From NCBI GenBank assembly GCA_029264955.1, contig JARHYC010000006.1:1-64000 (forward strand): a DNA stretch of 64,000 bases, written 5' to 3'. The translations under genes and the position numbers were made by a program. The notes beneath the pieces are model-generated. The model was not told the origin of the DNA. It was given only the letters and a program-made list of their open reading frames with translations, and did no database searches. This document shows positions 42,017 to 46,801 of this stretch, one piece after another. This DNA is from Faecalibacterium sp. (GTDB taxonomy: Bacteria > Bacillota > Clostridia > Oscillospirales > Ruminococcaceae). Position 1 is the stretch's first letter. Every line of letters begins with the position of its first letter.

Positions 42017-43144
42017 TTACGGTTCCTGCACCAACTTCAGCAAACGCTGGGTAATGCGCTCCAAGCTGTCGTCCACTGCCTGTGTGCGGGCATTGTGGCC
42101 CATTTCCACCAGCTTATCCGGATTCTCCAGCAGCTTCTGCACGGTTTCAATCAGACGTGCATCCGTCAGATTTTTTTCCTCAATGACGACAGCGGCGCCT
42201 GCCTTTTCCAGCTCCAGTGCATTAAAGTACTGGTGATTCTCTGCTACGTTCGGACTGGGAATCAAGATTGCAGCACGACCTGCTGCTGCCAACTCTGCCA
42301 GCGTCAATGCACCGGCTCGACTGATAATCAAATCGGCTGCGCTAAGCAAATCCGGCATATTATCAATGTACTCCTTCACAATCAGCTTTTCGCCGACAGC
42401 GAAATTCATCTGAGTCGCCAAGCCATCGAACAGATTTACACCGTAGCGACCGGTTGCATGAATGTGCAGCACATTCTGATTCGTGTGCTGCTCCCATGCG
42501 CACAAAGCTGCTACACTTTCATTGATGCGGCGTGCGCCCAAACTGCCGCCAAAGGACAAAATCACAGGGCGGTTGCCTGCGCCCAGTTTTGCGCGGTTTT
42601 CCATACGATTTGCCGCTGCTGCCAGCACCGCAGGACGTACCGGGTTACCGACTACCATCGTTTTTTCAGGTGCTTTCAGCTTATCCACTGCACCTTCCAC
42701 CGCAGCAAACACCACATCCACATCCGGAGCCAACAGCTTGTTGGTCACACCTGGGAATGCATTCTGCTCATGAATTGCCGTCTTAATGCCCATCTTTGCG
42801 GCACAGCGCACTACCGGGCCAGACACATAACCACCACAGCCAATCACCAAATCCGGCTTGATTTCCTTCATCATCTTCTTAGCCTTGGGGGCAGACTGAA
42901 TCAAATTCCACATCGTGATGGCATTACGGCGAATATTCTGCAAACTGAGCTGACGCTGAAAACCAGTAATTTCAATGGAGTGGAACGGATAGCCAGCTTT
43001 GGTAACCAGCTTATTTTCCATACCACACTCACGCCCCGCAAAATGGATTTCTGCAGTCGGGTCAGCCTCTTTCAGTGCGCCAGCAATCGCCAGTGCAGGA
43101 TTGATATGTCCGGCAGTGCCGCCGGCAGCAATCAGTACACGCAT
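42017..43144 (-). CDS. murG: UDP-GlcNAc transferase MurG
   Basis: A 375-residue GT28 enzyme that makes lipid II from lipid I at the inner membrane face. The glycine-rich AAGGTAGHINPALA loop is at the N-terminus, and LSFGGSLGARRIN and SRAGALTLAELAAAGR in the C-domain bind UDP-GlcNAc. The ATG at 43144 has AAAGGAG upstream and lies one base after the ftsW stop; the in-frame extension into ftsW is discarded. Complete and typical, which contrasts with the degenerate MraY-like protein of the same cluster. Confidence 0.97.
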   Translation of the reverse strand: MRVLIAAGGTAGHINPALAIAGALKEADPTAEIHFAGRECGMENKLVTKAGYPFHSIEITGFQRQLSLQNIRRNAITMWNLIQSAPKAKKMMKEIKPDLVIGCGGYVSGPVVRCAAKMGIKTAIHEQNAFPGVTNKLLAPDVDVVFAAVEGAVDKLKAPEKTMVVGNPVRPAVLAAAANRMENRAKLGAGNRPVILSFGGSLGARRINESVAALCAWEQHTNQNVLHIHATGRYGVNLFDGLATQMNFAVGEKLIVKEYIDNMPDLLSAADLIISRAGALTLAELAAAGRAAILIPSPNVAENHQYFNALELEKAGAAVVIEEKNLTDARLIETVQKLLENPDKLVEMGHNARTQAVDDSLERITQRLLKLVQEP

Positions 43145-43145
43145 C

Positions 43146-44354
43146 TCAATTCTCCTTTGTTTCTTTTTGCTGTGCAGCTTCCTTGGCAGCTTTTCGCTGC
43201 AGCTGCGCGCGCTTGCCCTGACGGGCAATATTTATCATAACACCCATCTCTGCCAAAAGCAGCACCAAACTGGTACCGCCGGAAGAGAAAAATGGCAGAC
43301 TGATTCCCGTGTTGGGCACCGTATTGGTTACAACTGCGATATTAAAGAACACCTGCCAAGTAATCTGTGCCGTAATACCCAGCGCAAGCAGTGTACCATA
43401 CAAATCGGATGCATTGTATGCAATGTACAGTCCCTGGAAAATCAGACCCACAAATAACAGGATTACAACCATTGCACCCAGAAAGCCCAACTCCTCGCAC
43501 AGAACACTGAAGATAAAGTCATTGGTGCATTCCGGCAGCCACAACTGCTTCTCCATGCTGTTGCCGATTCCCAGACCCGTCATACCACCGCTGCCAATAG
43601 CAAGCAAACTTTGCTGGGTTTGCCAAAGCATATCTTCAAATACCGATGTCCATCCTGCAATGCGATCCCCAGCATAGGCGGTAAGGTTATGAAACTTGTC
43701 TGGAAATAGAAGTACAAAAGTCAGCCCCGCAACGCCGAACCCTGCAATCCATAGAATTGCATTGCCTCCCAGCAGCATCATGGAACCAACAATCATAATC
43801 ATCAGAACCATACCGGACAGGTGCGGTTCCAAGTACAGCAGTGCCAGTACCGGAATCAGCGGCAGCATCGGCATTACCAGACCATACCAGAAGGTATTGC
43901 GGCGCTTCCGGTAACGAATAATGATCCATGCTGCAGTCAGAATGATGACAAACTTTACAATTTCCGATACCTGAATGCTAGGCAAATAACGTAATGGCTT
44001 CTGTCTCCAGTGCAACCAACGGCGGCAACCACTGATGGGCTCGCAGGTCAACACGATACACAATAGGATCAAACTTGCAGCATACCCCCACCAAGCCCAG
44101 CGATCATACTTATGATAGTCAAACTGCGCCATGACCAGCATGATTCCAAGACCCAGTACTGCAAAAATCAGCTGACTGCGGATAAAGTGATAGCTATCGC
44201 CAAAACGTAGATATCCTGTGGTATAGCTGGCTGAAAACAGCATTAAAAGGCCAAACGCCACAATAATTAGCAGATTGACAATAAAGCCCACCGGGTAGTA
44301 TTGTTTTAGCCCCAGCGGCGGAAGACTCGATTGCTTTGTGTTTCGGTATGCCAT
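43146..44354 (-). CDS. ftsW: Lipid II glycosyltransferase FtsW (SEDS family)
   Basis: A 402-residue SEDS protein with about ten helices. The conserved PSIQVSEIVKF, the essential-Asp-bearing region and the C-terminal NTGISLPFFSSGGTSLVLLL are present. FtsW polymerises lipid II at the septum together with the class B PBP encoded in the same operon. The C-terminal tail is Lys/Gln/Glu-rich. Lies 35 bases after the MraY-like gene. Confidence 0.95.
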   Translation of the reverse strand: MAYRNTKQSSLPPLGLKQYYPVGFIVNLLIIVAFGLLMLFSASYTTGYLRFGDSYHFIRSQLIFAVLGLGIMLVMAQFDYHKYDRWAWWGYAASLILLCIVLTCEPISGCRRWLHWRQKPLRYLPSIQVSEIVKFVIILTAAWIIIRYRKRRNTFWYGLVMPMLPLIPVLALLYLEPHLSGMVLMIMIVGSMMLLGGNAILWIAGFGVAGLTFVLLFPDKFHNLTAYAGDRIAGWTSVFEDMLWQTQQSLLAIGSGGMTGLGIGNSMEKQLWLPECTNDFIFSVLCEELGFLGAMVVILLFVGLIFQGLYIAYNASDLYGTLLALGITAQITWQVFFNIAVVTNTVPNTGISLPFFSSGGTSLVLLLAEMGVMINIARQGKRAQLQRKAAKEAAQQKETKEN

Positions 44355-44389: not shown

Positions 44390-45391
44390 TCATGCGGTAG
44401 CAGACAACACTTGCAACAGTGCCAGCACCGCAAATGTAAATGCAGCCAAACCCATCGTTCCTATAATACGAACCTGCTCCCAACCTGCCTCAGCCATTGC
44501 AGCCTGAATCGGCAGAATCTTAAACAGCGGACGTTTGCGCAGGCGGTAGCTTAGTCCCTGTAAAACATAGGCAATGCCTTCCAGCCAGTAAACCCCGCCC
44601 AGTAAGAGCAGCAAACCGCCCCAGCCCATAGAAACGGAAATCGCACCAATACTCGCTGCAATAAAGGTGCTTCCACTGCGACCCAAAAGCAGCTTTGCCG
44701 GCGGAAATCCCCACAATAAGTATGCCAGCAATGCGCCACTAAGCGCAGTTGCATACAGCGACATCTGCAAATGATTTTGCAGCGCAGCAACCGCACTGCA
44801 AACCAGACACGCAAAAAAGCCGTTCATGCTGCATACACCCACTTCACCGGCAGACATATGCGCTGTTTCCACTAGCGCTACCAACGCAAACCCCGTCAGC
44901 GGGATATACCAGCCTCCAAAATCCACATAACCAACAAACGGAACAACTGTACCGGTAGGCAACGCATCAATCAAGTGCAAAACGCCCAAAAATCCCAGTG
45001 CCAGAAATGCTTCCAGCGCAATACGCCACAGCCATGGCAGCGGGCGGTGATCCTTGCGCAGATAGCCGCGCATATCATCCCAGATGCCTACCAGTGCAAA
45101 CGCAAACCCCGTCAGCACACTGGTAACCAAAACCTGACGCTGATATCCATCCATCAGCCGGGGTTCCATCACTGATAAACCCAGCCAGGCTACCGTTACA
45201 GCTGCAATCGTGCCAAAAACCACAGCAAATCCACCCATTGTAGGCGTTTCCGGCTGATTGCGGCGCAGAATCGGCTGTGCCGTCATTCGTCGCATCTGCC
45301 ATTGCCGCAACATGGGCAGCATGATGTTTTCTACGGCAGCCGTTACCAAAAATCCCAACAGTGCAGCCACCATCAAAGCGTATCGTGCCAT
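44390..45391 (-). CDS. MraY-like protein lacking most catalytic motifs
   Basis: A 333-residue, ten-helix protein at the mraY position between murF and ftsW. TPTMGG (49-54) and the Asp pair WDDMRG (105-106) are kept. Canonical KxGTPTMGG has lost its Lys; the NxxNxxDGxDGL motif is ETAHMSAGEVGVC (175-187); GDxGS reads GRSGS (237-241); PIHHH reads PIQAA (294-298). The Asp of GDxGS and the His of HHH are essential in studied MraY. It is thus likely inactive as a phospho-MurNAc-pentapeptide transferase, or uses altered chemistry. It has no stops or frameshifts. Confidence 0.85.
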   Translation of the reverse strand: MARYALMVAALLGFLVTAAVENIMLPMLRQWQMRRMTAQPILRRNQPETPTMGGFAVVFGTIAAVTVAWLGLSVMEPRLMDGYQRQVLVTSVLTGFAFALVGIWDDMRGYLRKDHRPLPWLWRIALEAFLALGFLGVLHLIDALPTGTVVPFVGYVDFGGWYIPLTGFALVALVETAHMSAGEVGVCSMNGFFACLVCSAVAALQNHLQMSLYATALSGALLAYLLWGFPPAKLLLGRSGSTFIAASIGAISVSMGWGGLLLLLGGVYWLEGIAYVLQGLSYRLRKRPLFKILPIQAAMAEAGWEQVRIIGTMGLAAFTFAVLALLQVLSATA

Positions 45392-45418
45392 TCTATTTCC
45401 TTTCCATAAAAAGTGTGC

Positions 45419-46801
45419 TTATCGCTGCGGCCATTCCGCATAAAACAGCGCAAGCGCCTTTTCCAATGCCATACCACGGCTACCCTTAACTAGAATAGCA
45501 TCACCTGGCTTTACATTTTCCAATAAAAGGTCCGCAATCTCACGGTAACTGGCAGTATGTACCGCCCGCAAACCAACCGCCTTTGCGGCATCCACCGTAG
45601 CTTTGCAGGCATCGCCGTAAGCAATCAGGAAATCCACCTTATTTTCTGCAGCTTGCTTGCCCAGCGTGGTGTGCGCGCTTTCGCTGATGGTTCCCAGTTC
45701 CAACATATCACCAAGCAGTGCAAATCGGCGCTTGCAGGTGTACGTCGCAAACATTTCCAGTGCAGCCTTCATGCTGTCCGGATTTGCGTTATAGCAATCT
45801 TCGATTACCGTTACCCCATCGCACTCTACCATGTGCTGACGCATACCCGTCTGGCGGAAATCGGCCAGCGCATCCGCAGCAGTTGCGGCGTCCAGGCCCA
45901 GGCGCGTAGCCACACAGTATGCAGCCAATGCATTTGCAATATTATGCTTGCCAATGGTAGGAATCCGAACAGCAAACGTACCATTTTCCGTGTCATTCAG
46001 GATAAAGAAAGTATCATTGCCTTGCTGGCGAATCTCCGATACAGTTACCTCGGCCGCTCCTTCATTCAAGCTGAACCAGACCGGCTTTACATGGACAGGC
46101 AGCTGTGCGCTGCGCAGATAAGGATCATCTCCATTCAGAACCAGTGGCGCACCGTCTGTCAAACCATCGCAGATTTCCAGTTTGGCTGCCAGAATATTCT
46201 CCCGACTGCCCAGATTTTCCATATGGGATACACCGATGCAAGTGATAATGCCCGCATCCGGTCGAGCAGCACGACTCAAACGGCTGATTTCGCCTCGATT
46301 GCTCATGCCCATTTCCACAGCGGCAAACTGCGTACTGTCTTCCACACGCAGCAGTGTATTGGGCATACCCAATTCATTATTCTGGTTCCCCTCCGTCTTA
46401 ATAGTATTGCCAAAAGCGGACAACACCGCATAGCAAAACTCCTTCGTTGTGGTCTTACCCACACTACCGGTAATTCCCACTAGTTTGGGGGAAAACTGGC
46501 TGCGATAATTTGCTCCGATCGTCATCATTGCGCGGTAGCTATCTGGACAGAGAATCATTTTTTCCGCTGCCAAACCATCCACCGGATGATTGACAACCAC
46601 ATAGGCTGCACCCTGTTCCACTGCCCGACAGGCAAAGTCGTGTCCGTCAAACTTTGCGCCAGGGAATGCAACAAACACACATCCTGGCTGAATCTGTCGG
46701 CTATCCGTGGTAACTAGGTTAATTTTTGTATCAGACAACCAGCTTTCGGGCGCAAGGCCTGCCAGCAGAATTTTTGCAGAAATCGGCTGCATTTGCTCCA
46801 T
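45419..46801 (-). CDS. murF: UDP-MurNAc-pentapeptide synthetase (D-Ala-D-Ala adding)
   Basis: A 460-residue Mur ligase. ATP loop GITGSVGKTTTKE (about residues 107-119), the EMGMSNRGEI motif, HNIANALAA and DCYNANPDSM (the MurF form of the C-terminal motif) are all present. It adds D-Ala-D-Ala to the tripeptide. The start is ambiguous: ATG at 46801 has AAAGGA very close, while ATG at 46792 has it 11 bases away. It follows the PBP gene by 18 bases. Confidence 0.96.
   Translation of the reverse strand: MEQMQPISAKILLAGLAPESWLSDTKINLVTTDSRQIQPGCVFVAFPGAKFDGHDFACRAVEQGAAYVVVNHPVDGLAAEKMILCPDSYRAMMTIGANYRSQFSPKLVGITGSVGKTTTKEFCYAVLSAFGNTIKTEGNQNNELGMPNTLLRVEDSTQFAAVEMGMSNRGEISRLSRAARPDAGIITCIGVSHMENLGSRENILAAKLEICDGLTDGAPLVLNGDDPYLRSAQLPVHVKPVWFSLNEGAAEVTVSEIRQQGNDTFFILNDTENGTFAVRIPTIGKHNIANALAAYCVATRLGLDAATAADALADFRQTGMRQHMVECDGVTVIEDCYNANPDSMKAALEMFATYTCKRRFALLGDMLELGTISESAHTTLGKQAAENKVDFLIAYGDACKATVDAAKAVGLRAVHTASYREIADLLLENVKPGDAILVKGSRGMALEKALALFYAEWPQR

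Follow-up and report, generated by a model that had tools for sequence, protein, structure and literature searches.

MraY is regarded as an essential, near-universal enzyme of cell wall synthesis and as an antibiotic target. Why, then, does a bacterium of the genus Faecalibacterium carry, at the place of mraY in its dcw cluster, a gene that looks intact but encodes a protein lacking most of the residues of the MraY active site? The locus lies in a 64,000-nucleotide stretch of DNA (positions 1 to 64,000 of contig JARHYC010000006.1, assembly GCA_029264955.1), referred to here as the window. A first reading, made from the sequence alone, had proposed that such a gene would not stay open by chance, and that its product may have a new structural role, act on a different substrate, or exist beside a second, active MraY encoded elsewhere.

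The open reading frame occupies positions 44390-45391, as the sequence-only reading had placed it, and lies on the minus strand, which that reading had omitted; it begins with an ATG at 45391 and encodes 333 amino acids, and the plus-strand frame is interrupted by stops. A Shine-Dalgarno-like AAAGGA (45398-45403, minus strand) is found 6 bases 5' of the ATG. The gene follows the 3' end of murF by 27 bases, and the start of ftsW is 35 bases further downstream, all on the minus strand. Its upstream neighbor is murF (45419-46801; TIGR01143, 405 bits, cut-off 288.6) and its downstream neighbor is ftsW (43146-44354; TIGR02614, 278.7 bits, the top model yet under its cut-off of 337.5); murG, encoding the user of lipid I, is located two genes downstream (42017-43228, minus strand; TIGR01133, 265.5 bits, cut-off 250.25). 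The open frame and the model matches of the neighboring genes bear out the proposal of an intact gene in the mraY slot between murF and ftsW, and we refer to it as the slot gene.

The slot protein matches PF00953 at 65.6 bits (cut-off 27), which indicates homology to the MraY fold family over most of its length, and matches the mraY equivalog model TIGR00445 at 99.5 bits, under the cut-off of 192. Six solved sequences match it at an E-value of 0.01 or lower, the top five of which are all MraY, and a profile of the slot proteins of the genus matches 4J72 over 7-336 at 1.5e-31. A structure model built from the single sequence was unusable (pLDDT 52) and yielded no PDB match at an E-value of 0.001 or better. 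In dcw position, family and closest solved matches, the slot protein therefore resembles canonical MraY (TIGR00445, PF00953; 4J72, 5JNQ, 8G01); it differs in the catalytic and substrate-contacting sites. In A. aeolicus MraY, whose numbering we use throughout, D117, D118 and D265 are described as critical, with Mg2+ bound by D265; the uracil pocket is lined by K70, G194, L195, D196 and F262, an adjacent pocket by T75, N190, D193 and G264, and inhibitors are touched by H325 (PMC6606608). We scored nine sites: K70, D117, D118, N190, D193, D196, D265, H324 and H325. Two remain in the slot protein of the window, D117 and D118 (Asp105-Asp106; codons at 45074-45079, minus strand, these and the following coordinates being derived from the start of the frame). 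K70 is replaced by Gln, N190 by His (His178; 44858-44860, minus strand), D193 by Ala, D196 by Val, the Mg2+-binding D265 by Arg (Arg238; 44678-44680, minus strand), and H324, H325 and H326 by Gln, Ala and Ala. The alignment thus agrees with the first reading both in what is kept, the TPTMGG motif and one Asp pair, and in what is gone: the Lys, the N..DGLDGL motif, the Asp of GDxGS and the HHH motif. The residues required of an MraY enzyme are absent, and the sequence strongly suggests that the slot protein is catalytically inactive and synthesizes no lipid I.

This state is shared across the genus. The slot protein was read in 21 of 31 Faecalibacterium genomes; none retains all nine sites, the number ranging from one to six, with six in the least degenerate protein (G020), and the frame is open in all 21. 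Because no copy is intact and every frame is open, chance or sequencing error is ruled out. The argument that chance decay would not leave an open frame accordingly holds within the genus; it fails in two other genera, where the gene has been deleted. The loop that formerly bore K70 contains at least 26% Pro and Glu in 18 of the 21 proteins, and 14% in that of the window. Exactly two members of the PF00953 family were found in 28 of the 31 genomes, the exceptions being two genomes with one member (G010, 80% complete; G026, 89%) and one with three (G019, 79%), no fewer than two of which are partial. All eight of the genomes assembled as a single contig carry exactly two members, which rules out that a canonical MraY was lost to incomplete assembly.

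In the genome to which the window belongs (G000; 1.88 Mb, 99.59% complete, 39 contigs), the sole other PF00953/Glycos_transf_4 protein is encoded on the minus strand at G000:C2:39152-39622, outside the dcw cluster and on a different contig. We have coined the name MraY2 for this protein. Its motifs are NVVNCTDGVDGL, GDAGSRA and TPLHDHARK, and seven of the nine sites are kept, the DDD motif included. A search of this genome for another MraY therefore returned one further family member. Of the options first put forward, the one with the best support is that of another MraY encoded elsewhere; the gene is there, and it is probably active. Among 44 aligned MraY2 rows, D117, D118, N187, N190, D193, D196, D265 and H324 are present in all and H326 in 42. 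K70 and H325, two residues expected of an MraY enzyme, occur in none: K70 is replaced by Ser, Thr or Ala and H325 by Asp, and further replacements affect T75 (Arg in 42), F262 (Leu, Met or Ile) and E328 (Arg or Lys). MraY2 is thus like canonical MraY in family, in the DDD motif and in N190, D193, D196 and H324, and unlike it in lying outside dcw, in the replacement of K70 and H325 and in scoring under the mraY cut-off. An AlphaFold model from 19 rows reached a pLDDT of 86.8 and a pTM of 0.88.

We propose, with a probability of roughly 0.7, that MraY2 makes lipid I and that the dcw MraY, freed and dead, has been retained as a pseudoenzyme with a probable non-catalytic role. According to this proposal, a divergent paralogue, probably acquired laterally, would supply lipid I in present Faecalibacterium; its presence would free the dcw MraY from catalysis, the active site would be lost, and a dead membrane protein of the MraY fold would persist in the operon. 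What the sequences themselves show is that another family gene exists, that catalytic residues have been lost, and lost again in separate lineages, that dN/dS lies below 1 and that some Gly and Pro residues are selectively retained. The slot protein combines the features by which a pseudoenzyme is recognized, namely lost catalytic residues, a sequence under selection and a retained fold, the last assigned by homology alone. It may act as a non-catalytic partner or scaffold for MraY2, MurF, MurG or FtsW, or as a lipid-binding regulator; we consider the chances about even that it holds a selected partner or scaffold role. Such a role fits what has been published on MraY dimers and Mur contacts. 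A review describes MraY as dimeric, and MraY and MurG as recognized by Mur enzymes, and suggests that loop A, which joins helices 1 and 2, may require a cytoplasmic partner (PMC4929429), and native mass spectrometry is reported to find C55-P where the two subunits of the MraY dimer meet (PMC9046198); another account doubts that the dimer is functional for all MraY and treats dimerization in vivo as unsettled across species (PMC5039524). In our data, the evolutionary rate of the slot protein did not covary significantly with that of MraY2 (partial r 0.33, p 0.115) or ftsW (0.38, p 0.124), and covariation with murF and murG was absent.

Selection on the slot gene was assessed by pairwise dN/dS (Nei-Gojobori). 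Within the genus the median was 0.48 and the maximum 0.74 (194 pairs with dS<2), and the ratio was 0.07-0.25 in the eight pairs with a slot dS <0.5 among the 26 pairs, of 210, that are most alike in murG. The genus medians of the other genes were 0.19 for MraY2, 0.27 for murF and 0.15 for murG, so that of the five proteins the slot protein evolves fastest; ftsW was observed to be the second-fastest in the genus (median 0.34, identity 66%). In other lineages, at dS values near saturation (1.7-2.6), four pairs of dead copies gave 0.24-0.33, three canonical pairs 0.09-0.40, and the pair G061/G140, whose G140 member is an intact slot, 0.19. In an alignment of the slot proteins of 20 species, 52 of the 306 columns show no change, and lnL improves by 111 once rates are allowed to differ between sites. 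We also compared 24 dead copies with 30 canonical MraY; the dead set takes in six of the 21 genus rows, G061 (Asn at D265) and G020 (D265 kept) having been set aside. Seventy columns do not vary among the canonical proteins, and at ten of them, seven Gly, two Pro and one Asp (D118), the canonical residue persists in at least 88% of the dead copies. None of the 24 has N190, D265 or H325, and retention is partial at D196 (58%), D117 (42%), H324 (42%) and D193 (38%). To call the kept Gly and Pro structural is our own label, and G264 is also described as lining a substrate pocket (PMC6606608). It looks as though the fold has been kept and the chemistry abandoned, under a constraint weaker than that on the surrounding enzymes. 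The new structural role first suggested for the protein agrees with the residues kept and with dN/dS below 1; the role itself is something we infer.

The main rival to this proposal, a real but lesser possibility in our judgment, holds that the dead gene has no job at all. Its frame would stay open since stops or frameshifts are polar on ftsW and murG, or since a misfolded protein is toxic, and selection would act solely for a harmless, translatable membrane protein until a clean deletion happens. The clean deletions in two genera, the high rate of the slot protein and the finding that all of the degenerate slot proteins read lie inside the operon are in keeping with such passive retention. 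The low dN/dS of close pairs, the 52 invariant columns and the retention of the same Gly, Pro and Asp across separately degenerated lineages, with the active-site residues gone, argue that more than hydrophobicity is constrained. We prefer a retained, selected pseudoenzyme, any role of which would be dispensable in the two genera (four genomes) that have deleted the gene.

The relation between slot state and MraY2 was followed in a family set of 148 genomes, each at least 90% complete. MraY2 is present in 25 of them, at 342-589 bits, with all other matches below 79. The slot in these 25 is intact in four (G080, G140, G044, G129), carries D265N in one, is degenerate in 16 and is deleted in four (G084, G156, G074 and G148, of two genera), where murF abuts ftsW. 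Four genomes, G183, G184, G186 and G197, were assigned to the family from their place in the dcw tree, from which G184 is itself absent. The D265N case (L214:5581-6600, in G061) is a dcw MraY that keeps the other eight of the nine sites alongside MraY2, and looks like an early step of loss. MraY2 is absent from 123 family genomes; a strong PF00953 match (best E-value 1.1e-31 or lower) is present in 121 of them, and in the 23 of these in which motifs were read, all nine sites are kept. An exception to a strict rule linking MraY2 to a dead slot is G076 (L161, G076:C3:31000-38300), where the slot is degenerate with four of nine sites (K70D, D117E, N190T, D265E, H325E) and MraY2 was not found, even by a lenient search. 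In G101 (1.9 Mb, 95% complete), PF00953, the slot, MraY2 and, at 1e-60, murF were not found; this organism is possibly wall-less, or the assembly has gaps. PF00953 was the best Pfam match of all eight diverse slot proteins compared, above the cut-off in five. In three genomes (G052, G136, G183; L209, L173, L201) the dcw murF itself scores under the murF cut-off, and a second, partial murF-like match is found elsewhere.

On dcw trees built from the murF, ftsW and murG genes of 68 genomes, the degenerate slots do not group together, and at least eight changes are needed for the slot state and 11 for MraY2. The slot is dead or deleted in 42 of 46 genomes with MraY2 versus 1 of 22 without it. A test of independent pairs gave four to five concordant and no discordant pairs (p 0.06-0.125), and so is underpowered. 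In the tree of MraY2 itself, rows of the family are intermixed with Lachnospiraceae rows, and a single family clade is rejected (p-AU 0.008; 30 versus 17 rows) in a test that omitted 13 of the 60 tree rows (eight canonical, G119, G184, two of family f40 and one G197 duplicate) and that was run after the first MraY2 tree had been inspected. From these trees MraY2 probably spread laterally, more than once. It is an unlikely alternative history, though one with which the change counts on the tree are equally compatible, gain and loss being indistinguishable from them, that MraY2 is ancestral, was lost many times without any lateral spread, and that the slot died where MraY2 stayed; the mixing with Lachnospiraceae and the rejected clade speak against it, as does rarity, MraY2 being detected at 1e-60 in 19 of 393 class genomes and 3 of 398 phylum genomes. 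MraY2 is a restricted subfamily.

The surroundings of MraY2 were compared at 38 loci. The commonest group was MraY2 itself (34 loci) and the next most shared was present in eight; an antibiotic or resistance cluster is ruled out, no neighbor group being common to more than 8 of the 38. A plasmid origin was likewise rejected, 14 plasmid records all showing less than 60% identity, the best 25%. Two unannotated fecal contigs labeled 'Bacteriophage sp.' (MT836336.1, MT839863.1) carry a relative of MraY2 at 51-52% identity, and are perhaps chromosomal DNA. In Lachnospiraceae with MraY2 alone, neither ftsW nor murG was near murF in the loci fetched, and a dcw slot was not found.

That MraY2 makes lipid I is very probable because in other genomes nothing else matches the mraY model. 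This is so in all 11 genomes of genus g148 and the one of g307 (family f40), and likewise in G551 and G320. Of the 24 genomes behind named loci, six contain a match that exceeds the mraY cut-off, and in 14 just one match is seen, including Butyrivibrio WCD3002, Butyrivibrio NC2002, L. phytofermentans and [C.] fimetarium; a degenerate slot protein may escape the threshold of the model, as in G183 and G197, but a canonical MraY should be detected if its sequence was assembled. The MraY2 of family f40, genus g148 (L215, L216, L217), was observed to be more divergent, at 207-254 bits with the A2 profile. It seems improbable to us that MraY2 is instead a WecA/TagO-like initiator of some other polymer, with lipid I coming from the slot protein or from some unknown enzyme. 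MraY2 does lack K70 and H325, carries Arg in place of E328 and, in most rows, of T75, is separated from canonical MraY by a very long branch and does not reach the mraY cut-off of 192. Against such an initiator stand its being the sole mraY-model match in many genomes, its scores (92.3 bits for mraY versus 43 for wecA) and the preference of its profile for MraY structures (6e-23 to 9e-17) over eukaryotic GPT (about 0.005).

Least probable of all is that the slot protein has remained an enzyme, of altered chemistry or acting, as had been suggested, on a different substrate: D118 persists in 24 of 26 copies and D196 in 16 of 26, G020 keeps six of nine sites and G076 has Glu at D117 and D265, but the Mg2+ binder D265 (PMC6606608) is missing in 24 of 24 degenerate copies, which makes another substrate unlikely, as are N190 and H325, and many different residues take the place of D265 (S, R, Q, E, K, N, M, C, H).

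Parallels exist for parts of this arrangement. Planctopirus limnophila also has two mraY genes in one genome; it differs in being a planctomycete in which single deletions of mraY1 or mraY2 are viable, and the excerpted report contains no mention of lost catalytic residues in the pair (PMC10632474). MglA, an alternative lipid II synthase that can replace MurG, is likewise a distant homologue able to take over a step of the dcw pathway, but at the MurG step and in actinobacteria, with no retained dead dcw copy mentioned in the excerpted account (PMC8092295). The MraY-like proteins of archaeal pseudomurein synthesis (NF053644; PMC11915815) form, as described there, a divergent MraY-like family whose model MraY2 matches at 48.8 bits; they are archaeal, the cut-off is 450 bits, and MraY2 scores higher with bacterial mraY. 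Among the titles and abstracts listed by searches of open-licence PMC papers, neither a dead dcw MraY nor such an MraY2 was reported. The finding combines two known kinds of event, a pseudoenzyme and the replacement of a core dcw enzyme by a paralogue.

A broader form of the proposal, which we put forward tentatively, is that in gut Clostridia the making of lipid I has passed to MraY2 repeatedly, probably through lateral spread, and that the dcw MraY there is mostly a dead, conserved scaffold or regulator subunit, possibly a hetero-dimer partner of MraY2. If true, MraY would be shown to have a function apart from its chemistry. The altered uridine/HHH pocket of MraY2 (K70S, F262L, H325D) may also make it less sensitive to nucleoside antibiotics, a property that, if real, would explain its spread. 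In a major human gut genus, the gene in the mraY place looks dead and lipid I is probably made by a paralogue that has gone unnoticed and whose drug pocket is altered; annotations or inferred targets that rely on the dcw gene would therefore be misleading. Relatives keep, inactivate or delete the slot gene, a natural experiment repeated in several lineages, and should the dead copy prove to have a job, that experiment would have parted what MraY contributes structurally to the wall-synthesis complex from its catalysis.
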